Assembly: GCA_029565675.1 (NCBI GenBank) | Contig: JAKQNP010000051.1 | Coordinates: 62,001 to 126,000, forward strand | Length of the DNA: 64,000 bases | Source: a bacterium | GTDB taxonomy: Bacteria; Zhuqueibacterota; Zhuqueibacteria; Residuimicrobiales; Oceaniaggregativiventaceae | Reading direction: 5' to 3' | Shown here: positions 96 to 20,600 of the stretch, one piece after another | Layout: every line of letters starts with the position of its first letter | How positions within the stretch are numbered: position 1 is the first letter of the stretch | Notes under the pieces: model-generated | Database searches by the model: none | What the model saw: only the letters and a program-made list of their open reading frames with translations | Told to the model about the DNA's origin: nothing | Position numbers and translations under genes: made by a program

Positions 96-1448
96 CTATT
101 GGATATTCATCCCGGTGTTTTGGTTGTTGTACCTGAACTTGGGCCAATGCGCCCGGGTTTTGAGGCCCATGCTGGCAGTTTCAATGGCATAGAAATGGCC
201 AGTTAGATCATTTATAAACAGAGTACCCATTGAACTCAAAGCGGGAGAACTCCAGGTAATGCCGCTTTTGGATTCAACCATCCACATTATCGAGCCGTTT
301 TTGGGATCAAGCGCATAGACTCTGCCGAATTCATTGCCAAAGTACAGGGTACCATCCGAACCGATGGCCGGCGAAGAATAAATATCAAAGTGGCTTGATG
401 GGACGTTGCTCGGCAGATCAGACGGCTCGAAAGTCCATTTTAGCGAGCCATCGGGATTTAACGCGATGAAAATGGAAGAGGGGTTGCCGCTGTTTGTCCC
501 GAGATAGATCGTTCCGTCCTCATCGATGGCCGGCGATGACCGCATCGTGCACGAGTAGCCAAACGAATTCGTGTCGAATGACCACAGTATATCCCCGTTT
601 GCCGATACCGCATAGACCACGCCGGGATTGGTGGCAATAACGATGGCACCATCGGTGCCGATTGCCGGAGAAGCAAAAACATGATCGTTTACTCCGAGTT
701 CACGCGACCAGAGCGTGTGGCCGTCGGTCGGATCCAGGGCAGTCAACGGAATATTGTGATAGACAAAGTAAAGGATGTTGTCTTTTCCGATGACCGGCGT
801 GTTGCGGATATCTTCTACTGCCGGATTGAACCGCGCCCACTTGAGAGTGCCATCGGGATTGATCGCATAGAGTCCACCCGCGGCGGCATAGATTGTGCCA
901 TCAAGGGAAACAGCTGGAGCGGATTGACCGACATCGATCATTCCTCGCGGAGTTGGATTGATATCAAAGGTCCAGGCCAATTGACCGCTCTCCGTAAGCC
1001 GATACAAAATGTCGTGCCGACTTCCCTGTCCAGCAGAAAGATTGCGCTCCGATGCAACAAAGACAATCGATCCATCCGGGCAGATGGCAGGAGTTGAACG
1101 AACTTCTCGGCTTCCGAGCTGAAATTTCCACGATACTTTGCCGGTTGAAACCGCAACCGCATAGAGTGCATTTTTGCTGGATGGATTTGCTAAAATTCCG
1201 GATGATGTGCCGAAGTAAACCATCTTTTCGTCCAGGCTAAGCGCCGGAGAACCATAATAGCTCTCCTCTTCTGCCTTAAAAGTCCAGAGCAGGCGCTTAT
1301 CACTTTTTTCTTCAGGACCGTTGACTTTATCGCACGCAGCGGTCATGACGAAGAGAACACAACAGAAAAGGTTGCGAATTTGTTTTAAACGGGGCAGTTC
1401 GGTTATTAAAATTTGCGAGTTCGCCCTGGCTCGATGATGGGTCGCCAT
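96..1448 (-). CDS. PQQ-like beta-propeller lipoprotein
   Basis: About 450 residues. The N-terminus has a hydrophobic stretch ending in a lipobox (FVMTAAC), so the protein is probably a lipoprotein facing the periplasm. The rest is a series of propeller blades with the recurring pattern 'SSPAI..DGT.Y.G...G..YA...DG...W', seen about eight times, which is typical of PQQ-like/quinoprotein repeat proteins such as BamB-type scaffolds and extracellular repeat proteins. The end WPKFR.N..NTG is common in this group. I chose the ATG at 1448 because AGGAG lies 7 bases upstream; a longer reading from 1475 has no comparable site. No PQQ-dehydrogenase catalytic residues were identified, so a structural or binding role is more likely than an enzyme. 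It is transcribed away from the next gene. Confidence 0.8.
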   Translation of the reverse strand: MATHHRARANSQILITELPRLKQIRNLFCCVLFVMTAACDKVNGPEEKSDKRLLWTFKAEEESYYGSPALSLDEKMVYFGTSSGILANPSSKNALYAVAVSTGKVSWKFQLGSREVRSTPAICPDGSIVFVASERNLSAGQGSRHDILYRLTESGQLAWTFDINPTPRGMIDVGQSAPAVSLDGTIYAAAGGLYAINPDGTLKWARFNPAVEDIRNTPVIGKDNILYFVYHNIPLTALDPTDGHTLWSRELGVNDHVFASPAIGTDGAIVIATNPGVVYAVSANGDILWSFDTNSFGYSCTMRSSPAIDEDGTIYLGTNSGNPSSIFIALNPDGSLKWTFEPSDLPSNVPSSHFDIYSSPAIGSDGTLYFGNEFGRVYALDPKNGSIMWMVESKSGITWSSPALSSMGTLFINDLTGHFYAIETASMGLKTRAHWPKFRYNNQNTGMNIQ

Positions 1449-1794
1449 TGCTGCACTCCTGATTGCCACTTTCAATCACTATTCCGATAGGGTGGTGTCT
1501 CAACGAGGGACACCATTGAACTAAATATAGTTTTTGCCGCTTTTAAGTCAAGACATTAATGTTGTTTCTGCTCGAAAGATGCATCACAGTCGATTGACAG
1601 TTACTCAATTTCGATTTGCTTTTCGTGTCCTGATTGGCTATTTTGCGGCCAGACTGCTCACAACGCCTCAGCCTGCTTGGTTTAGTAGATCAGAACCGAT
1701 GGATGTTCAGCGCCCGAGACAGGTCCAAATCGTTCAGCCAGCGAAATCAGATGGCATTAACTCCTTTGACGGCTTTTAGAGAAGGCAAAAAAAC
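1449..1794. other. Divergent intergenic region with a short hairpin
   Basis: About 345 bases between divergently transcribed genes, so it should hold promoters for both. I see no convincing ORF. A perfect 7-bp inverted repeat, TGGTGTC/GACACCA with a 9-base loop, lies at 1493-1515, close upstream of the propeller gene. The same arm sequence occurs in the hairpin at 52311-52344. Confidence 0.4.
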
Positions 1795-2727
1795 ATGAGA
1801 AGACAGAGTCTCGTCGCCCCCGGTTGGTGGGACTATACAACCATTGATGATGCGCTGGTGGCTGATGCAGCCAGATTGAGCGCAAAAGACATCGAACAAC
1901 TCAGTCGACCTGGCTTCAAGGTCCTGATGTACGACACCATAGAGGAATTTTATCTGGCTGAAGCACTCGAGTACATCGAAGCATGGAAGCAATCCACGCC
2001 GGCGCATCCCTGTGGTATTTGCGGCCCTATCGGTCCAACCGAACAGCTCCCGCTGGTCGCGCGTCTCGTCAATTCTTTTGATCTCAATCTGGCAAAACTC
2101 GATGCGCATTTCTGGGGAATGGATGAATGGGTGATCGATGGGCAGGCAGTCGGTATCGATCATCCGCTCTCGTTTGCGCGCTGCGACCGTGAACTTTGCT
2201 TTGATCGCATTCGATCCGACCTCCGCATGCCGGAGAAGAATCTGCATTTCCCTTTTGGCGACCTGCAAGTCTACAGCAAGACCTTTGAGCGGTTTACCTG
2301 CAAAATCATGCAGGGAGGCCAGGGCGAGACCAAACATTGGGCTTTCAATGATCCGGTCAAAAGACAGGGGAAATATGTGGATCATCCGCCGGCGCCTGAA
2401 GAGTTCCGCCGACTCTCAACGCGCATTGTCGACCTCCATCCGATGACCATTATGCAAAATGCCCGCACTTCTGGCGGCGGCAATGTCGCTCTGGTGCCGA
2501 ATCAAGCGGCAACCGTCGGTCCGTGGGAAACCTGGAAAGCGGAAAAAGTCTCCATCTGGCACGCCGGTTGTCACGACAACGCCTTTGGAATGCGCCTCAG
2601 CGCTCTCATGATCGCCAAGCATCTGCCGGATTCTGCGGTGCCGATGAGTCTGCTCGCTGATCATCCCAATGTGCAGTTCAATTTCTTCCGTCCAGCGATC
2701 GGAACTTGTCAGGTGGAGATGCACTGA
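1795..2727 (+). CDS. Glucosamine-6-phosphate deaminase-like protein (NagB family)
   Basis: 310 residues, somewhat longer than classical NagB (about 266). The family core is visible: a FWGMDEW segment with the Asp-Glu pair at about 110-111 (compare F.MDEY in NagB), IDHPLSF following it as in HPQSY, and a C-terminal [19 protein letters not shown] region. Known NagB enzymes convert glucosamine-6-phosphate to fructose-6-phosphate and ammonia. The gene overlaps the start of the LmbE-like deacetylase by one base (TGATG), so the two are translationally coupled and probably act in one amino-sugar pathway. Some active-site segments differ from NagB, so another sugar-phosphate isomerase/deaminase activity is possible. 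The ATG at 1795 follows a weak GAAGG-like site. Confidence 0.75.
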
Positions 2728-3521
2728 TGCAGAAGGAAAATGGCGTGCTTGCGCTCGTCGCGCATCCCGATGATATCGAATTTATGATGGCCGGCACCCT
2801 GCTGATGCTGAAGCAAAAAGGCTGGGAGATCCATTACCTGACGATCGCCAATGGCAGCTGCGGCAGCGCTGTCGATGATGCGGCGACGATCGTTGCCAAA
2901 CGCCAGGCAGAATGCCGCGCCGCCTGCGCTCTTGTCGGCGCTCACTGGCAGCCGCCCATCTGCAATGACCTCGAGATTCTTTATGATTGGGATATTATCC
3001 GCCGGGTGGTGGGTGTCATACGCCAAATCAAACCCCGTATCGTTCTGACGCAATCACCCGACGACTATATGGAAGACCACATCAACACCTGCCGTATCGC
3101 TGTCACCGCCGCATTTTGTCGCGGTATGCTCAACGCGCAATGCGAACCGCCAACACCGCCCTTTCAGGATGACCTTACCATCTACCATGCCATGCCGCAT
3201 GGACTTTTGGACCCATTTCGCCGCAGGATCGAGCCAGAATTTTTTGTCAACATATCGCCAGTTATGCAGCAAAAGTGGGACATGCTCTCATGCCACAAAA
3301 GCCAAAAAGAATGGCTGGACATCAGCCAGGGCATGGACGCCTATCAGCAAGTCATGAAAGCTTTTGCGACTGACCTTGGAGAGCGATCAGGGAAATTCAA
3401 TTATGCCGAAGGTTGGCGACGGCGCTCCTGGCTTGGCTTTTCCGCCGCTGATAGCGATCCGCTGGCCGATGCGCTTGGGGGTGATGTCATTCGAAATCCT
3501 GTCTACTCTTTTTGTACCTGA
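2727..3521 (+). CDS. PIG-L/LmbE family deacetylase
   Basis: 264 residues from the ATG at 2727, which overlaps the upstream stop; AGGTGGAG at 2711-2718 is its ribosome site. A TTG eight codons earlier is unlikely. The N-terminus has VAHPDDIEF, the zinc-binding HPDD motif of N-acetylglucosaminyl-phosphatidylinositol/LmbE-type deacetylases, and a later EDHINTCR supplies the third histidine (H-x3-H-like). Members remove acetyl groups from GlcNAc-containing substrates. Pairing with a NagB-like enzyme suggests a two-step route: deacetylation of an N-acetylated amino sugar, then deamination/isomerisation. The cytoplasmic location is inferred from the lack of a signal peptide. The gene ends 10 bases before the converging KamA-type gene. 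Confidence 0.82.
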   Translation: MQKENGVLALVAHPDDIEFMMAGTLLMLKQKGWEIHYLTIANGSCGSAVDDAATIVAKRQAECRAACALVGAHWQPPICNDLEILYDWDIIRRVVGVIRQIKPRIVLTQSPDDYMEDHINTCRIAVTAAFCRGMLNAQCEPPTPPFQDDLTIYHAMPHGLLDPFRRRIEPEFFVNISPVMQQKWDMLSCHKSQKEWLDISQGMDAYQQVMKAFATDLGERSGKFNYAEGWRRRSWLGFSAADSDPLADALGGDVIRNPVYSFCT

Positions 3522-3531
3522 GGAAATTGCC

Positions 3532-4677
3532 CTACTTCCGATTCGGATTGTGCCGCAGCGGCTTTCCTTCCACCTTTTCGATGGGATCGTTGACATACAC
3601 TTTACCGAGACCGATCGGTGAGGTGATGATCCCGCCGCGCTTGTCTTCGCTGATTCCTTCTGAATAACCGAGGTCAACAGGCACTTTGCCTCTGCCGCCC
3701 TGACCGTCGACCACATAGACCGGGCGAAGAAAGCCGGTTGTCGCCCCACATAGATCTCGACAGATTTCTTTTCCTTTGTTAATCTCGGTTCGAAAATGAC
3801 CCGTGCCCTCGACAAAATCCGCGTAATACAAGTAATAGGGCTTGATGCCCATTCTGCCCAGACCGTGCACCAGGTCTCTCATGACATCGGTGTCATCGTT
3901 GACGCCCTTGAGCAGAACCGTTTGGTTGCCGATCGGAATGCCCAACTGCCGCAAAAGTTTTACCGCCTGATAGCTCTGTTCCGTGATCTCATTCGGATGA
4001 TTAAAATGGGTGTTGATAAAGAGCTGCGGATCTTTCAACGTCCGAGGAATATGCTTTTTTAGCACCTCGAGGAACTCCTGATCTTCGACGATCTTTTGCG
4101 GCCAGACGCAGGGGACTCGGGTGCCAATACGGATGAGGTCGAGATGTTTGATTTCCCGCAAAGCTCCCAGAATTTCATCCAGCCTTTTGTTGGCAATCAA
4201 CAGCGGGTCGCCGCCGGAGATCAATACATCGCGAATGTCCTCGTGTGAGGCGATGTATTCAATCCCGCGCATGATGTCCTCTTTGCTCGGCGTTTTCAGA
4301 TCGTCACCGACCTTTCGCTTTCGGGTGCAGAAACGGCAATACATGGCGCACTCGATGGACACAAACAGCAACACCCGGTCTGGATATCGATGGATGATGG
4401 TCCTGGGACCCCCAAGCGGAATGTCTCCTTCCTCATCCAACGGGTCTTCGGTAAGATCCATATAATGCTCAAGTTCTTCCACATCTGGAATGGCTTGTTT
4501 CCAGATCCCGTCGTTGACCTTTTCGATGAGGCTTAGATAATAGGTATTCACCCGCATCGGATATTTGGCGATGACTTGTTCCAGCCTGCGATCCACCCTT
4601 GCTTTCTGTCCGATCAGCCATTTTTCCAAATCGTCGAATGTCCTGATTCCGTTTTTTAAAATATCTCTGTATGCCAT
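3532..4677 (-). CDS. KamA-family radical SAM protein (aminomutase-like)
   Basis: 381 residues. The radical SAM cysteines are C110-x3-C114-x2-C117 (CAMYCRFC), followed by TRKRKVGD as in lysine 2,3-aminomutase. SGGDPL and the PLP-lysine segment GGRGKVP (K331) are also present. It lacks the C-terminal cysteine cluster that binds zinc in true lysine 2,3-aminomutase and that is present in the second copy at 16354-17685. It is therefore probably a different aminomutase (for example acting on glutamate, a modified residue or an unknown amino acid) rather than a redundant AblA. The start is the ATG at 4677 with AGGAGGG 6 bases upstream. It lies upstream of, and co-directional with, no obvious partner; the next gene on this strand is an M50 protease 80 bases away. 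Confidence 0.85.
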   Translation of the reverse strand: MAYRDILKNGIRTFDDLEKWLIGQKARVDRRLEQVIAKYPMRVNTYYLSLIEKVNDGIWKQAIPDVEELEHYMDLTEDPLDEEGDIPLGGPRTIIHRYPDRVLLFVSIECAMYCRFCTRKRKVGDDLKTPSKEDIMRGIEYIASHEDIRDVLISGGDPLLIANKRLDEILGALREIKHLDLIRIGTRVPCVWPQKIVEDQEFLEVLKKHIPRTLKDPQLFINTHFNHPNEITEQSYQAVKLLRQLGIPIGNQTVLLKGVNDDTDVMRDLVHGLGRMGIKPYYLYYADFVEGTGHFRTEINKGKEICRDLCGATTGFLRPVYVVDGQGGRGKVPVDLGYSEGISEDKRGGIITSPIGLGKVYVNDPIEKVEGKPLRHNPNRK

Positions 4678-11813: not shown

Positions 11814-12437
11814 ATGATCGTAAAAGTGCGGGAGCTGGGCACTCTGCCGAATCTAATCAGTCTGAGCCGTTTGATAATGGTCATTCCGGCCGCTTATTTG
11901 ATCAAAATCAACACCGAAAGCGGAAACCGGCTGCTCCTTCTCCTGGCGGTCTTGATCATTCTATCTGATTTTATCGATGGATATCTCAGCCGCCGAATGG
12001 GCCTGGTCACTGATCTGGGAAAGCTGCTCGATCCGGTGGTTGACAAGGTTTGTATGTTTATCGGCCTGCTCAGCCTGATATTCTATCGCGGATTTCCTGC
12101 CTCGTTGGCGGTTTTTCTGGTCTACCGCGATCTGTTGATCATCATCATCGGTTTTATCATTATTCGCAAAAGTCAACAAGCCATAATGGCCAATTTTTGG
12201 GGCAAACTCAATACCCTGCTTGTCTCTTTGACGATGTTTTTATTCATGATCGGGGTGGATAACGGGGTTTTCAAGATCTGTCTGATCGGCAGCCATTTTA
12301 CAATTTTGGCATCAGGACTCTCTTATTATGCTTTTGCCGAGTCGGTTCTCTTTGAGCAGCGCAACTGCATCAATGGTTTCCGCATTACAATGTTTCTATT
12401 GACGATATCGGTTATTTTTCTTGCGCTGAGAATATGA
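11814..12437 (+). CDS. CDP-alcohol phosphatidyltransferase
   Basis: 207 residues with about six membrane helices. The complete family motif is present as D55-G-x2-S-R60-x8-G69-x3-D73-x3-D77, with Ser in place of the usual Ala before Arg. These aspartates bind the metal and CDP moiety when a phosphatidyl group is moved from CDP-diacylglycerol to an alcohol acceptor. Size and N-terminal 'LPNLISLSRL' resemble PgsA-type phosphatidylglycerophosphate synthases, but the acceptor cannot be fixed from sequence alone. AGGAAA precedes the ATG. The gene converges on the HesB-like gene, with stops only 6 bases apart. Confidence 0.88.
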   Translation: MIVKVRELGTLPNLISLSRLIMVIPAAYLIKINTESGNRLLLLLAVLIILSDFIDGYLSRRMGLVTDLGKLLDPVVDKVCMFIGLLSLIFYRGFPASLAVFLVYRDLLIIIIGFIIIRKSQQAIMANFWGKLNTLLVSLTMFLFMIGVDNGVFKICLIGSHFTILASGLSYYAFAESVLFEQRNCINGFRITMFLLTISVIFLALRI

Positions 12438-12443
12438 CGGTTT

Positions 12444-12746
12444 TCAGCAGCTGGCGCCTTCGAACAGGACGATAAACCGTTGGCCAAAAAGGGTATCGAT
12501 AAAATCGATGGTCATCGGTCCGTACAGCGCCGCAATTTTATCAATTACCGCATCCCAGACGATTTGACTGCCTTCGATATCCAGAGAACCGGCTTCATTT
12601 TCCAACTTGTCTTTGACCTGAACCAGGCCCATCTTGGGGCCTCCTCAACCATAACCGGAAATGATGATGCGAAAACGAGGCGCTTCGACGGCAGCCGCTG
12701 CGTGTTCTCTGAAACCTGCTTGTGCTTTAGGTGTGATGTGGATCAT
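12444..12746 (-). CDS. HesB/IscA-like protein with in-frame TGA (candidate selenoprotein)
   Basis: Read from the ATG at 12746 (AGGAG 7 bases upstream), the gene runs 33 codons, meets TGA at 12645-12647, and continues in frame for 66 codons to a stop at 12444-12446, giving 100 residues, the size of HesB/IscA domains. N-terminal MIHITPKAQAGF matches the family start. The TGA falls exactly at the conserved cysteine of the G-C-G-GP loop (ISGYG-TGA-GGPKMGL). The downstream half keeps family features (MTIDFIDT…RFIVLFEG) and ends GASC, a C-terminal Cys near the position of the IscA C-x-C. HesB-like selenoproteins are a known bacterial family, so Sec at position 34 is the best reading; a nonsense mutation is the alternative. 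A hairpin follows the TGA directly. IscA relatives carry Fe-S clusters or iron, and here the Sec would replace a cluster-ligand cysteine. No sel genes lie in the window. Confidence 0.82.
12619..12647 (-). promoter_or_regulatory. SECIS-like hairpin at the recoded TGA
   Basis: On the coding strand the TGA is followed two bases later by a perfect 6-bp stem AGGCCC/GGGCCU (12642-12637 with 12630-12625) closing a 6-base loop CAAGAU that contains a G. The UGA itself can pair with UCA at 12619-12621, placing the stop codon at the foot of the hairpin. This is the layout of bacterial SECIS elements, although the apical loop is rather close to the UGA. The G-C-rich codons of GGP also make some pairing possible by chance. 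Confidence 0.55.
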
Positions 12747-12913
12747 GTTCTTCTCCTGAACAGAAACCGGCTTGGTGGTCTACAAAACCAAATGTAGCAA
12801 AAGCCTTTATTTGAAACAAGGTTTCGCTTGCTTGCAAGCACATGAGCGCCGCATTTTGCCGTGTTCCTTTGGTGGTCTGCAAAGCCCAGGCGAACAACCA
12901 ACGGTACAAAACA

Positions 12914-14260: not shown

Positions 14261-14431
14261 TTTGTTCTCCACAGGATCTATCGATTGCGGCATCACACAG
14301 CGGATGCGATTAACGACAAAATAAGAAATACAGCGATCAAAACAAACCATTTTGCTTTTTAGCCGGGAAAATTTATATTGCCCATGTTCGATCAATCGGT
14401 TCGAATCCGGGTCAAACCTGGAGGAGGTGGC

Positions 14432-15901
14432 ATGCAAATCCCGGATCCTTTTACTTCAATTCGTCAAGAGATCGTCGGTATTGATCTCAAGTTCCGTACC
14501 CCTTGCGGAGAAAAAACGCTTCTCTACGCCGATTGGACTGCCTCCGGCCGCCTCTACCGCCCGATCGAGCAGCGTTTGAGCGAAACCATTGGCCCGTATG
14601 TCGGTAATACCCATTCCGAACTCAGCGTAACCGGCACCTGCATGACACGCGCCTATCACCATGCGCAGAACATCATCAAAAAACATGTCAATGCCGCTAA
14701 AGATGATGTGTTGATCCATACCGGATTCGGGATGACGGCGGCGGTCAACAAATTTCAGCGGTTGTTGGGGCTCAAAATACCCGAACAGTTTTGTTCGAAT
14801 TTCCATATCCCCGATCCTGTTCGTCCGCTGGTCTTGATCACCCACATGGAGCACCACAGCAACCAGACTTCCTGGCTGGAAACGATTGCCGAAGTGGTTG
14901 TGTTGCCGCCCGGCCCAAATGGCTTGGTCGATCTCGATCGATTGGAGGACCGGTTAAAAAAATACCGCGATCGGCCATTGAAATTCGGCGCATTTACCGC
15001 CTGTTCCAATGTCACCGGCATCCGCACCCCTGTCCACCAAATGGCGTCATTGATGCACCGATACGGCGGCTATTGCTTTGTCGATTATGCCGCTTGCGCA
15101 CCCTATGATTCCATCGATATGCATCCAGCCGACCCAATGGAAAAATTGGATGCCATCTATTTTTCACCGCATAAATTTCTTGGCGGACCCGGTTCTTCCG
15201 GGGTGCTGATTTTTGATTCACAACTTTACCGCAACCGCGTGCCCGACCAGCCCGGCGGCGGAACTGTGGAATGGACCAATCCCTGGGGAGAACACCGCTA
15301 TGTCGCCGACATCGAAGTGCGCGAAGACGGCGGCACCCCCGGTTTTCTCCAATCGATCCGCGCCGCCCTGGCCGTCCGACTCAAGGAGCAGATGGGAGTC
15401 GATGCCATACACCAGCGCGAAGCCGAATGGACCGCCCGGCTTTTCAGCGGTCTGCGCCGCACTTCCGGGCTGCATCTGCTGGCCGATTCTGTAGAAGAAC
15501 GGCTGGGGATCTTTTCATTTTTTCTCGATTCGGTTCATTACAGCCTGGCGGTCAAGTTGCTCAACGATCGCTTCGGCATACAGGTGCGTGGCGGTTGCTC
15601 ATGCGCCGGCACCTATGGCCACTATCTCTTGCATGTGGATCCCAATCGATCGAAGAAAATCACCGATAAAATCGATCACGGCGATCTCTCCGATAAGCCC
15701 GGTTGGGTCCGGCTTTCGGTTCATCCGACGACGACAGAAGAGGAGATCGACCGGCTGATCGATGCATTGCATCAAATCACCAAACACGGCGAAAAGTGGG
15801 AAAAAGAGTATGTCTATTCCCGGCGAACCAACGAATTCCATCACCATCGCGAAAGTGACTACCAAACTCCTGTAGAGAGCTGGTTCGATCTTTCGGAATG
15901 A
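14432..15901 (+). CDS. Class V aminotransferase-fold PLP enzyme (NifS/SufS-like)
   Basis: 489 residues from the ATG at 14432, with GAGGAGG immediately upstream. YADWTASGRLYRPIE and GNTHSELS form the N-terminal family signature; SPHKFLGGPGSSG carries the PLP lysine (K248); the C-terminal GGCSCAGTYG has cysteines 389 and 391 in the region where SufS/NifS enzymes carry the catalytic cysteine. It is longer than SufS (about 410). Family members remove sulfur or selenium from (seleno)cysteine or cleave related substrates. With a HesB-like selenoprotein 1.7 kb away, a role in S or Se supply is tempting, but this is inference from proximity only. It is transcribed divergently from the URO-D-like gene, with 171 bases between starts. 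Confidence 0.82.
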   Translation: MQIPDPFTSIRQEIVGIDLKFRTPCGEKTLLYADWTASGRLYRPIEQRLSETIGPYVGNTHSELSVTGTCMTRAYHHAQNIIKKHVNAAKDDVLIHTGFGMTAAVNKFQRLLGLKIPEQFCSNFHIPDPVRPLVLITHMEHHSNQTSWLETIAEVVVLPPGPNGLVDLDRLEDRLKKYRDRPLKFGAFTACSNVTGIRTPVHQMASLMHRYGGYCFVDYAACAPYDSIDMHPADPMEKLDAIYFSPHKFLGGPGSSGVLIFDSQLYRNRVPDQPGGGTVEWTNPWGEHRYVADIEVREDGGTPGFLQSIRAALAVRLKEQMGVDAIHQREAEWTARLFSGLRRTSGLHLLADSVEERLGIFSFFLDSVHYSLAVKLLNDRFGIQVRGGCSCAGTYGHYLLHVDPNRSKKITDKIDHGDLSDKPGWVRLSVHPTTTEEEIDRLIDALHQITKHGEKWEKEYVYSRRTNEFHHHRESDYQTPVESWFDLSE

Positions 15902-16353
15902 ATCGGCAGAATGCCAAAATAATAGAATTTTTTCTTGCAATTTAGGCTTAAAATACCTACATCATTGATAATAAAAGACATAAAGACCATGAAGCGATTC
16001 GAATGAACAATCGAGAAAGGAAAGTCGCCACCCTGTGAGTGGGGAGACGGCCGGGGCAAATTCCAAACAGCCCCGATCCGATATTATGCTGATTTTTTTG
16101 CCGGACAATTTCATCTCCATCTCTGTCACCCTCATCTACCCCTTTTTCTATTTCTGAATCCAGCTTCGGGATAGCGGCTGTGTTGCGCTCCGGGTTCCGA
16201 AGTTATGGCTTCGTTTCCTCTGATCAAATCCTTCTTCTTTTCAGCTCGTTTATTCAATATTTTTCGTTGCCTGGCATCGCATCCAGCCATTAGATCTTAT
16301 CGACCCCATCGTGTGGCAACCTTTTGCCCTTGTCGTCAAACAGGAGTTTTGCT
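15902..16353 (+). other. Intergenic leader upstream of the beta-lysine cassette
   Basis: About 450 bases with no convincing gene. It probably holds the promoter and 5' leader of the aminomutase operon. At 16024-16075 there are two adjacent potential hairpins: CCAC/GTGG (16028-16041, embraced by GTC/GAC) and a perfect 6-bp stem CGGGGC/GCCCCG at 16052-16075. A salt- or lysine-responsive leader would be logical, but I do not recognise a known riboswitch. Confidence 0.35.
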
Positions 16354-17685
16354 ATGCCCATTTTTAATCCTCGACAACAGGAAATCGCCCAAAAGTTGGA
16401 TCCACAAGCCGGCAAGGCGGAGTGGATGGACTGGCGTTGGCACATTCGCCATACTGTGCGCGATATCGACATGTTTGAAATGCTCCTCGGCATTCAATTC
16501 GGTGCGTCGGAACGGCGAAAATTGGCAGAGACGGTGGAAAAATTCCCCATGTCGATCACGCCTTATTATTTGTCATTGATCGACGAAACGGATTTCAGCC
16601 TCGATCCGGTATTCAAACAGTCTTTTCCCGGCGTGGACGAGCTGATGATCGATCCCCATGACCTGCGCGATCCGCTTGCCGAGGATCAGGACAGCCCGGT
16701 AGCGCAGATCACCCATCGCTATCCGGATCGCGTTCTTTTTCACGTCAGCAATATCTGTTCGATGTATTGCCGGCACTGCACACGCAAGCGCAAAGTAGGC
16801 GACATCGATTCGATCCCCAGCCGCAAAATCCTGAATGAGGGTTTGGAATACATTCGCAAGACACCGCAGGTGCGGGATGTGCTGCTCTCGGGTGGTGATC
16901 CACTGATGCTGTCGGATCGAACGCTGGATTGGCTTCTCGGTGAACTGCGCGCGATCGACCATGTCGAGATCATCCGGCTGGGTACGCGGATGCCGGTCGT
17001 GTTGCCCTATCGCATCACGCCGCAATTGACCGAGGTGCTGCAAAAATATCATCCCTTATACATCAACACCCATTTCAAACATCCGCGCGAACTGACTGCT
17101 TCCTCGCGACTGGCGCTGGCTCAATTGGCTGATGCGGGTCTACCCCTGGGCAATCAGAGCGTGCTGTTGGCCGGTGTCAACGATTGCCCCCGCATCATGA
17201 AAAAACTGGTGCACCAGTTGGTCAAGAACCGGGTGCGGCCCTACTATCTCTACCAGTGCGATCTGTCTGAAGGGCTGTCTCATTTTCGTACGCCGGTCGG
17301 CAAGGGTATCGAAATCATCGAGAATCTGATCGGGCATACGAGCGGGCTGGCCGTGCCAACCTACGTCATCGATGCGCCGGGTGGAGGGGGTAAAATCCCG
17401 GTAATGCCCAACTATCTGATCTCCTGGTCGACCCACAAGGTGGTTTTGCGCAATTATGAAGGTGTGATCACCACCTACAAGGAACCCGACTCTTATGAAC
17501 CAATCTTTTGCGATCGCAACTGCGAATCCTGTTCATTGCAGCTCAAACTGGACGACGCCGAGTCGGATCCACCACTGGGTATATCCGAGCTGTTGTCCGA
17601 TGAAAGCGAATTGATCACCCTGGTACCGGACAGCAATACCCGCCTGATCCGGAGAAACGGCAACGGTGACACGGACACAGACTGA
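16354..17685 (+). CDS. ablA: L-lysine 2,3-aminomutase
   Basis: 443 residues from the ATG at 16354 (AGGAG 8 bases upstream). Radical SAM cysteines are C135-x3-C139-x2-C142 (CSMYCRHC), followed by [11 protein letters not shown] lysine K347 lies in [10 protein letters not shown]; a C-terminal cysteine cluster (CDRNCESC) corresponds to the zinc site of lysine 2,3-aminomutase. The enzyme converts L-lysine to L-beta-lysine using SAM, PLP and a 4Fe-4S cluster. With the acetyltransferase two genes downstream this is the first step of N-epsilon-acetyl-beta-lysine synthesis, a compatible solute first known from methanogens and found in several bacteria. The transporter gene begins 11 bases after its stop, so the three genes form an operon. 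Confidence 0.92.
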
Positions 17686-17696
17686 TTGGAGCGCAT

Positions 17697-19130
17697 GTGG
17701 TTTTTGTCGATTATCTAATTTTCGCCGTCTATATGATTCTCGTCATTGGAGTGGGTTTTTATTTTTATCGCAAGAATGAAAATCGCGAGGACTATTATGT
17801 GGGCGGGCGGGAAATATCGGCCACGCATGTCGGCCTGTCGATAGTTGCCACCGATGTCGGTGGAGGATTTTCCATCGGATTGGGCGGACTGGGTTTTCTG
17901 ATGGGCGTGTCGGGCAGCTGGTTGTTGTTCAGCGGATTGGTGGGTGCCTGGATGGCAGCGGTTCTGATCATTCCCAAGATCAAACACAATGATCGAAAAC
18001 TCGGATTGCTGACCTATCCCGATTTTTTACGGACTCGCTATGGAAACGGTGTGGCCATGGCCGCGGCCGTGATTTCCGGAATCGGTTATCTCGGCTTTAC
18101 CGGCGGCCAGATCATGGCCGGTGCCAAATTGGCTGCAGCCACCCTTTTCGCGGATCTGGGCGGAACCGTCGATCCGCTGATGTTTTCGCTGGTGGTGATG
18201 ACTGCAGTGATTATCGGCTATACCGTGCTCGGCGGCATCAAGGCGGTGATCTATACCGACACCATTCAGTGGATCGTTTTGCTATGCGGTTTGCTCGTGG
18301 CGATTCCTTTCGCTCTATTCCACGTCGGCGGCTGGACAGCGATGCGTGAAGCTTTGCCCGCTCATTATTTTCGTCTGACGGCTTTGCGCCCGGTTCAGTT
18401 CATCAACTGGATGGTGACCATTGTTCCGATCTGGTTCATCGGCATGACTCTGTACCAGCGCGCCTATGCCTGTCGAACCGAAAAGGACGCCAAGCGTGCC
18501 TGCTTCATCGCCGGCTTGTTCGAATATCCGGTTCTCGCTTTTACCGGAGTCGTTCTGGGCATGATGGCGCGGGTTCTTTTTCCCGGCGCGGAAGCCGAGA
18601 TGGGCTTGCCCCTGTTGATTAAGCACAGTCTGCCACCCGTCATCACCGGCGTGGTGATTGCTGCTTATTTTTCGGCCATCATGTCGACTGCCGACAGTTG
18701 TCTCATCGCTTCGTCAAGCAATTTCGTCAACGACATCATTCACCGTCGGCTGTTGCCCGATGCCTCGATGAAACAGATCATGCGGCTGTCGCAGATCGCT
18801 ACCCTGGTGATCGGCGTTCTGACGTTTGTTATCGCCAGTTCGTTTCAAACCGTGCTGGAACTCATCCTGCACGCCTATTCGTTCATGGTCGCCGGGCTTT
18901 TTATCCCGACTCTGGGCGCATTTTTCTGGAAAAAGAGCGACTCTGTTGCCGCTCTCATCGCCATGATCGCCGGCGGCTCTTTGACGCTAGTGCTGATTTT
19001 TTCAGCACTTCCCAAGCCCTTTGGCCTCGATGCCAGTTTTTATGGAATCGTGACCTCGGCCTTGTTTTTTGTCCCGCTCTCCCTTTTGCGGGACGGGAAG
19101 GTGCAAAAAGAGGACAAGTCCTATGGATAA
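17697..19130 (+). CDS. Sodium:solute symporter (SSS family)
   Basis: 477 residues with about 13 predicted membrane segments. Start is GTG at 17697 (GGAG 5 bases upstream; the nearby ATG is out of frame). [20 protein letters not shown] followed by [16 protein letters not shown], then [12 protein letters not shown] and [17 protein letters not shown] with the sodium-site serines, are classical SSS/SSF features. Homologues carry sodium-coupled solutes such as proline, pantothenate or sugars. Its position between ablA and ablB, with the end overlapping ablB by 8 bases, suggests it moves lysine, beta-lysine or the finished osmolyte; the substrate is inferred, not seen. Such an insertion between ablA and ablB is not the minimal two-gene arrangement. 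Confidence 0.88.
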
Positions 19131-19956
19131 AATTGAAAAAATCGATCGCTCGCTTGTCCAGCACGGCAAGGAGAACGATCGCCTCTATCTGATCAAAATG
19201 GATCACACCGACTATCCCGAAATCATCACCAAAGTCGACGCTTTTTCCCAGGAAAAGAGCTATGGTAAAATCTTTGCCAAAGTGCCGACCTGGGCGGTGC
19301 AGGCGTTTCATCAGCACCGATTTATCAAAGAGGCGTTCATTCCTCGATTTTTTCGTGGCCATACCGGCACCTATTTCATGTCCAAGTATCTCAAAAAAAA
19401 GAGACGCCAGACTTCCGAGGATGAACGACAACAGATCGCCGAGATCCTTCGGATCGCCCGTGCCAAAATGCAAACCGATCCCGACTTGCCGACTGTGAAT
19501 TTTGTCTTTCGTGTGCTGGGTGAATATGATTGCGAGGCGCTGGCCGAATTGTATCAGCAGGTTTTTCCCAGCTACCCGTTTCCGATTTTCGATCCCGACT
19601 ATCTCATAGAAACCCTGCGTTCCCATGTCATCTATTTCGGCGCTTTTTTGGACGACAAGCTCATCGCCGCATCTTCGGCTGAAACCGATCCGGCATCCGC
19701 CAATGCCGAGATGACCGATTTTGCAACTTTGCCGGACTTTCGCGGCCACAAGCTGGCGTTGCACCTGCTGCAGCGCATGGAAGAAGAGATGCAGGCGCGC
19801 TCCTTCAAAACCCTTTATACGATTGCCCGTGCCCTATCCCCGTGGATGAATATCACCTTTGCCAAAAACGGCTACAATTTTGGCGGCACCTTGATCAACA
19901 ACACCCACATCGCCGGCAAGATCGAGAGTATGAATGTGTGGTACAAGAGGGTTTGA
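19123..19956 (+). CDS. ablB: Putative beta-lysine N-acetyltransferase
   Basis: 277 residues from the ATG at 19123, which overlaps the transporter stop by 8 bases; AGAGGA lies 9 bases upstream. The C-terminal half is a GNAT domain ([20 protein letters not shown], then [18 protein letters not shown] and [17 protein letters not shown] as acetyl-CoA-binding loop), and the end [20 protein letters not shown] is characteristic of AblB. It acetylates the epsilon amino group of beta-lysine to give N-epsilon-acetyl-beta-lysine, an osmoprotectant. The last 14 codons are contained in the first unit of a nine-copy tandem repeat running downstream; that unit differs from the others in having TGG where they have AGG. 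Confidence 0.9.
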
Positions 19957-20600
19957 GAGGGTGCCCCCGCGCTGCGGGGGGCACTTTTGCCGGCAAGATC
20001 GAGAGCATGAATGTGAGGTACAAGATGGTTTGAGGGGGTGCCCCCGCGCTGCGGGGGCATTTTTGCTGGCAAGATCGAGAGCATGAATGTGAGGTACAAG
20101 ATGGTTTGAGGGGGTGCCCCCGCGCTGCGGGGGCATTTTTTCCGGCAAGATCGAGAGCATGAATGTGAGGTACAAGAGGGTTTGAGAGGGTGCCCCCGCG
20201 CTGCGGGGGCATTTTTTCCGGCAAGATCGAGAGCATGAATGTGAGGTACAAGAGGGTTTGAGGGGGTGCCCCCGCGCTGCGGGGGCATTTTTTCCGGCAA
20301 GATCGAGAGCATGAATGTGAGGTACAAGAGGGTTTGAGAGGGTGCCCCCGCGCTGCGGGGGGCACTTTTTCCGGCAAGATCGAGAGCATGAATGTGAGGT
20401 ACAAGATGGTTTGAGGGGGTGCCCCCGCGCTGCGGGGGGCATTTTTGCCGGCAAAATCGAGAGCATGAATGTGAGGTACAAGAGGGTTTGAGAGGGTGCC
20501 CCCGCGCTGCGGGGGCATTTTTTCCGGCAAGATCGAGAGTATGAATGTGAGGTACAAGATGGTTTGAGAGGGTGCCCCCGCGCTGCGAGGGCATTTTTTC
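19915..20600 (+). repeat. Nine-copy 76/77-bp tandem array of the ablB 3' end plus terminator
   Basis: Units begin (at GGCAAG) at 19915, 19992, 20068, 20144, 20220, 20296, 20373, 20450 and 20526, so the period is 76 or 77 bases. Each unit contains the last codons of ablB ([11 protein letters not shown] and TGA), then a G+C-rich hairpin GTGCCCCCGC/GCGGGGG(G)CAC and a run of four to seven T. The first copy is the real gene end; the rest are diverged by a few point changes (AGGGTT or ATGGTT before the stop, one or two extra G). The array thus stacks nine copies of an intrinsic terminator. Long minus-strand readings through it are an artefact of repetition. Confidence 0.97.
19959..19991 (+). terminator. 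Intrinsic terminator of the abl operon (first of nine)
   Basis: Stem GTGCCCCCGC/GCGGGGGGCAC with loop GCT starts 5 bases after the ablB stop and is followed by TTTT. The same structure recurs in each of the eight downstream repeat units, several with a longer T run (six or seven), so the gene-proximal copy may be among the weaker ones. Confidence 0.85.

Follow-up and report, generated by a model that had tools for sequence, protein, structure and literature searches.

A predicted HesB-like selenoprotein of a divergent clade, and its putative SECIS element, in a bacterium of the phylum Zhuqueibacterota

The locus and its neighbours

The window, by which we mean the whole stretch of 64,000 nucleotides that was analysed, carries on its minus strand a short hesB-like gene whose frame is interrupted by a single TGA. 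The ATG occupies positions 12746-12744 and is preceded by an AGGAG ribosome-binding site at 12757-12753; 33 codons then lead to a TGA at 12647-12645, and 66 further codons in the same frame lead to a TGA stop. The predicted protein reads MIHITPKAQAGFREHAAAAVEAPRFRIIISGYG-U-GGPKMGLVQV...FIVLFEGASC. Both the ribosome site and this arrangement of codons had been claimed in a preliminary description of the locus, and both were found as claimed; the strand, which had been left unstated, is the minus strand, and the plus-strand frame over 12444-12746 is not the hesB-like gene. The expectation that a gene finder would leave a fragment of 62 residues is also borne out, an ORF at 12444-12632 being present in the mechanical ORF list. 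The features discussed below are these:

12447..12746, minus strand: hesB-like gene, predicted selenoprotein of 100 residues with U34; nine conserved homologues in the phylum
12444-12446, minus strand: terminal stop codon (TGA) of the hesB-like gene
12645..12647, minus strand: in-frame TGA, putatively read as selenocysteine (U34) in the motif GYG-U-GGP; TGA in all ten phylum members
12615..12629, minus strand: proposed SECIS upper stem-loop, GGCCUG-GUU-CAGGUC, from covariation and a synonymous-codon control
12625..12642, minus strand: hairpin of the preliminary description, AGGCCC-CAAGAU-GGGCCU, stable in the sequence of this gene, without conservation
12753..12757, minus strand: ribosome-binding site AGGAG, 5' of the ATG, recognised from its sequence
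12447..12449, minus strand: codon of the conserved C-terminal Cys100, invariant in alignments
11814-12437: CDP-alcohol phosphatidyltransferase gene, downstream of the hesB-like gene and converging with it
upstream of the hesB-like gene, diverging from it: GIY-YIG protein gene
next beyond the GIY-YIG gene: URO-D-like gene
14378-15901: class V aminotransferase gene, beyond the URO-D-like gene

The hesB-like gene, with a converging gene on one side and a diverging gene on the other, seems to form a unit by itself. The class V aminotransferase is the NifS-like gene that the preliminary description had set beside it. Two genes lie between them, and no homologue was found within the 9-15 kb around the gene in each of nine relatives, so the proposed link was rejected. 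Part of the local order (dipeptidase, URO-D, GIY-YIG) is kept only in genome G045, of the same family. Further along the window, a lysine 2,3-aminomutase-like gene (16324-17685) and a GNAT-like acetyltransferase gene (19069-19956) lie near each other and, judged by eye, resemble the ablAB pair for N-epsilon-acetyl-beta-lysine. The stretch 19913-20600 holds nine tandem copies of 76 bp that are nearly identical; in each unit a short reading frame, similar to the 3' end of the acetyltransferase gene upstream, is followed by a terminator-like hairpin with a T run.

Conservation of the TGA and the LVQ/LVE clade

An open frame on both sides of the TGA is by itself weak evidence, because, of the 2095 TGAs in the window, 127 follow at least 33 open codons and precede at least 66 more when shadow frames are counted. 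We accept the interrupted gene as real because the TGA is conserved at the same codon among relatives. The protein is encoded in 10 of the 82 genomes of the phylum that were searched, the window genome among them, and these ten range from the same family up to another class of the phylum. The nine relatives share 29-44% identity with the window protein; each of the ten members carries just one internal TGA, always at the same codon and within the motif [GS][YF]G-U-G[GA]P, and Cys is found there in none (0/10). Another codon or a frameshift at this point, which would have spoken against recoding, was seen in no relative in the phylum. A profile search of the same 82 genomes returned the same ten strong matches, each with one TGA; the other matches were weak, without a TGA, and mostly corresponded to ordinary A-type carriers found by PF01521.

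Outside the phylum, a TGA-pattern scan of public genomes found at least about 100 further clear HesB-like relatives in other phyla; the matches listed comprise at least 114 stretches, taxon counts are lower bounds, and the scan, as it demanded a TGA, gauges the spread of the Sec form and is blind to Cys forms outside the phylum. Among the matches listed are members of the Bacillota, Thermodesulfobacteriota, Spirochaetota, Fibrobacterota, Chloroflexota, Myxococcota and other phyla. A Cys-based pattern, with a Cys codon at U34, found no relatives and no Cys form with that motif when genome contigs were scanned. Two records, L080 (Pseudomonas sp. ISL-84) and L089 (Chryseobacterium sp. ISL-80), hold HesB-like selenoprotein genes nested within the Bacillaceae and are probably mislabelled or contaminated. 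Neobacillus sp. PS3-12 has two TGA-containing hesB-like genes in one genome (L079, L092).

In a tree built on 99 columns, with long branches and with finer placement unsure, the window gene falls within one supported group (99/93) of 15 sequences, which we refer to as the LVQ/LVE clade: ten from this phylum, one from the Chloroflexota, one from candidate division KSB3 and three from the Fibrobacterota. A second clade, the common one, with 93 distinct sequences, is named for the LALDE motif that follows its Sec loop.

The stem-loop and the selenocysteine machinery

Which hairpin would direct the recoding? We number bases from the first base after the TGA, and take as a yardstick the published bSECIS rules (PMC13188914): a G in the first two loop positions, a spacing of 16-37 nt and a stem of 4-16 bp. 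The preliminary description had taken a 6-bp hairpin close to the TGA as the SECIS element. This hairpin does exist, pairing bases 3-8 with 15-20 in the minimum free energy fold of this one gene's sequence, but its loop, which begins with C-A at 8 nt past the UGA, breaks the bSECIS rules, and it is not conserved: across the 15 clade members 52 of 90 pairs are kept, against 58.0 +/- 3.3 expected from synonymous codons, and its covariation is near the shuffled level, being equalled in 40 of 500 shuffles. The next hairpin downstream has support on both counts. It pairs bases 16-21 with 25-30 around a GUU loop whose G lies 22 nt after the UGA, within the bSECIS limits on loop, G position and spacing (PMC13188914). 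Its five outer pairs are kept in 67 of 75 cases, against 53.4 +/- 3.1 expected from synonymous codons (reached in 0 of 2000 simulations), and in the ten phylum members alone in 45 of 50, against 38.6 +/- 2.4 (15 of 2000). Changes on both sides, that is compensatory changes, occur at three pairs, and the covariation score is equalled in none of 500 shuffles, made without correction for relatedness. On the strength of covariation, the excess over synonymous codons and agreement with the bSECIS rules, we prefer 12615-12629 as the SECIS element. That the protein is a true selenoprotein served by the hairpin at 12642-12625 is improbable; its part in the minimum free energy fold, computed for this one gene's sequence, is outweighed by the pairing and shuffle counts given above.

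The thermodynamics of the stem-loop at 12615-12629 depend on how much of the message is free to fold. Segment 13-38 folds into this stem-loop alone, at -7.5 kcal/mol. In the intact 40-mer, forcing the stem-loop yields -8.6 kcal/mol, compared with -14.2 kcal/mol for the fold with the nearer hairpin; for the stem-loop to be favoured, the ribosome would have to melt the first ~12 nt. We envisage that a ribosome with the UGA in its A site would melt the first dozen bases and so free the second hairpin; SelB carrying Sec-tRNA-Sec could then bind GGCCUG-GUU-CAGGUC, the stem-loop that lies 16-30 nt downstream, so that the UGA would bring in Sec instead of termination. The Rfam model SECIS_1 has no match here, and the same model is matchless in all control genomes too; Rfam on the local region returned a chance snoRNA match only.

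The LALDE clade places its stem differently. There bases 21-25 pair with 31-35, and 463 of 465 pairs are kept, against 286 expected; at positions 23-24/32-33 the compensation runs CT/AG in 84 sequences, TT/AA in 6, CC/GG in 1 and CT/GG in 2. In the LALDE loci (L032-L145) an Ala codon GCT and a downstream GAG are near-invariant across phyla, and where they change they change jointly, GTT with GAA and GCC with GGG, as clean SECIS covariation. The LVQ/LVE clade, on the other hand, mostly pairs 16-20 with 26-30. The LALDE-type stem is complete in 4 of its 15 members (L018, L019, L021, L044) and unsupported in the clade overall; in these four the nearer stem retains 3-4 of its 5 pairs. Both registers hold the loop G at an allowed distance. 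From the positions of the two stems we consider it more likely than not that, within one selenoprotein family, the distance from the UGA to the SECIS stem has changed by 5 nt, with L018, L019, L021 and L044 as intermediate-like forms.

The preliminary description had named selA, selB, selC and selD as the genes to look for, and all are present in the window genome. The tRNA-Sec scores 73.2 bits (Rfam cut-off 47) and is also called by ARAGORN, with anticodon tca; selB lies on the window's own contig, and selA and selD are present in the genome. One of two selD copies itself has an in-frame TGA (locus L031, bases 546-1569, G000:C9; TGA at base 576). Its product would read ...KCAG-U-ASKLAPTEL..., where U-ASK agrees with the UxxK motif of Sec-containing SelD, and a strong hairpin follows the TGA. 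The other selD homologue, without a stop, lies within an open frame of 737 residues (L030, bases 1387-3600, minus strand, G000:C56), and may represent SelD with a long extension or a fusion with a further domain. Across the phylum, selA accompanies the hesB-like gene in every one of its ten genomes and occurs in 63 of the 82 genomes altogether, a co-occurrence weakly consistent with the Sec reading. Under strict filters tRNA-Sec was detected in 7 of the 10 carrier genomes and not in 3, and it scores above the Rfam cut-off in 49 of the 82 phylum genomes. A 2022 paper on KSB1 reported selABD and reported selC as absent (PMC9012183); the selC was probably missed by annotation there.

With the Sec machinery in place and the TGA kept by the phylum relatives, the selenoprotein interpretation of the preliminary description is upheld. 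Judged from sequence, the hesB-like gene almost certainly encodes a selenoprotein, one that belongs to the known HesB-like group (UxGP), with Sec as the residue that would be inserted at codon 34. Readthrough of the UGA with an ordinary amino acid, or the purposeful making of a 33-residue and a full-length product without Sec, would be compatible with the sequence alone; we hold it to be very improbable in a genome that has the complete Sec machinery and, in selD, another selenoprotein gene, together with a covarying stem-loop that fits the bSECIS rules. A sequencing or assembly error, or a pseudogene with a true inactivating stop, might be entertained for a short protein in a fragmented draft of 64 contigs, but is excluded in practice by the TGA at the same codon in ten phylum genomes and, in the TGA-requiring scan, at least about 100 other relatives, by open conserved sequence past the TGA, and by the lack of any Cys or frameshifted form in the phylum.

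Fold, ligands and place in the family

The preliminary description had matched both halves of the protein to the HesB/IscA domain. Structure prediction supports the fold, but family models recover it poorly: a Pfam search gave no HesB match and no PF01521 match, and the NCBIfam HesB/IscA models match weakly, far under their cut-offs (TIGR01911, 16.9 bits against 66.35; NF038090, IscA_HesB_Se, 23.2 bits against 85). Two TGA relatives from the LALDE clade, of Geobacter and Bacillus type, likewise stay under the NCBIfam cut-offs when C is written for U. The AlphaFold2 model has a pLDDT of 89.4 and resembles SufA (Z 10.7, 2.5 A over 90 residues), IscA (Z 10.0) and DsrR (Z 9.3), so that a HesB/IscA fold is supported by prediction. 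Profile matches include HI1723 and AQ_1857. In the profile alignment U34 coincides with the first conserved Cys, which bears out the earlier placement of the TGA at the family's conserved Cys; Cys100 falls opposite the first C-terminal Cys of HI1723.

Canonical A-type carriers have three Cys ligands. The window protein shares with IscA, SufA and ErpA (PF01521) the predicted fold, the position of the first ligand Cys (at U34) and a C-terminal Cys; it differs in having Sec for that first Cys and, in place of C-x-C, one C-terminal Cys, as well as in the missing PF01521 match. Instead of C ... C-x-C it offers U34 and Cys100 only, the protein ending at Cys100, and the third ligand is absent in most members. 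U34 would substitute for the first ligand Cys of the A-type Fe-S carriers and pair with Cys100, which is its likely partner. DsrR of Allochromatium vinosum (2k4z), which matches in fold, is a sulfur-oxidation protein.

Taken as a whole, our explanation is that this is very probably a HesB/IscA-fold selenoprotein in which Sec, inserted by means of the 12615-12629 stem-loop, replaces the first ligand Cys at U34. As to biochemical function, it is about an even chance that the U34/Cys100 pair acts as in a selenium-using relative of the A-type carriers, binding iron or an Fe-S cluster or performing selenol/thiol redox chemistry; both roles fit, and we slightly prefer that of a metal or Fe-S ligand. 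A simple swap for canonical A-type carriers was considered and rejected: a PF01521 protein is missing from 8 of the 10 genomes with the hesB-like gene, yet the two occur together in G038 and G045, and many genomes are without either.

Descriptions of HesB-like selenoproteins go back to the mid-2000s (PMC1794560), and a count published in 2016 found them in 86 organisms (PMC5029168); the preliminary description likewise called the family established. Their UxGP motif (PMC13188914) appears in the window as U34-G-G-P. A 2024 study called the function of HesB-like selenoproteins unclear; it dealt with a Methanococcus member, whose mutant still fixed nitrogen (PMC11097638). With the known members (TIGR01911, NF038090) the window protein shares a HesB/IscA-type domain, the TGA at the conserved Cys in G-U-GGP, the C-terminal Cys, a downstream stem-loop and genomic Sec machinery. 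It differs in carrying LVQ/LVE, not LALDE, after the Sec loop, in a C-terminal half that is longer and has WD and YG motifs, in a SECIS stem 5 nt closer to the UGA, and in NCBIfam scores under cut-off. What is new here is modest, namely a divergent LVQ/LVE clade, mainly of this KSB1-related phylum, with its SECIS element 5 nt nearer the UGA; neither the clade nor the shifted element was found in the literature searched, which was limited in extent.

What do these observations mean for the family? They add to the HesB-like selenoproteins a divergent and easily overlooked clade from an uncultured phylum that has been little studied, where standard gene calling leaves a 62-residue fragment in the window genome and Pfam and NCBIfam cut-offs overlook the protein. 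If the shift of register is true, the two clades would preserve a natural record of register change in a coding-region recoding signal. The two SECIS registers also offer a test of the spacing tolerance of SelB. Since the hesB-like selenoprotein is the sole HesB/IscA-type protein found in the window genome, it may provide a clean case for the role of selenium at an Fe-S or iron ligand site.
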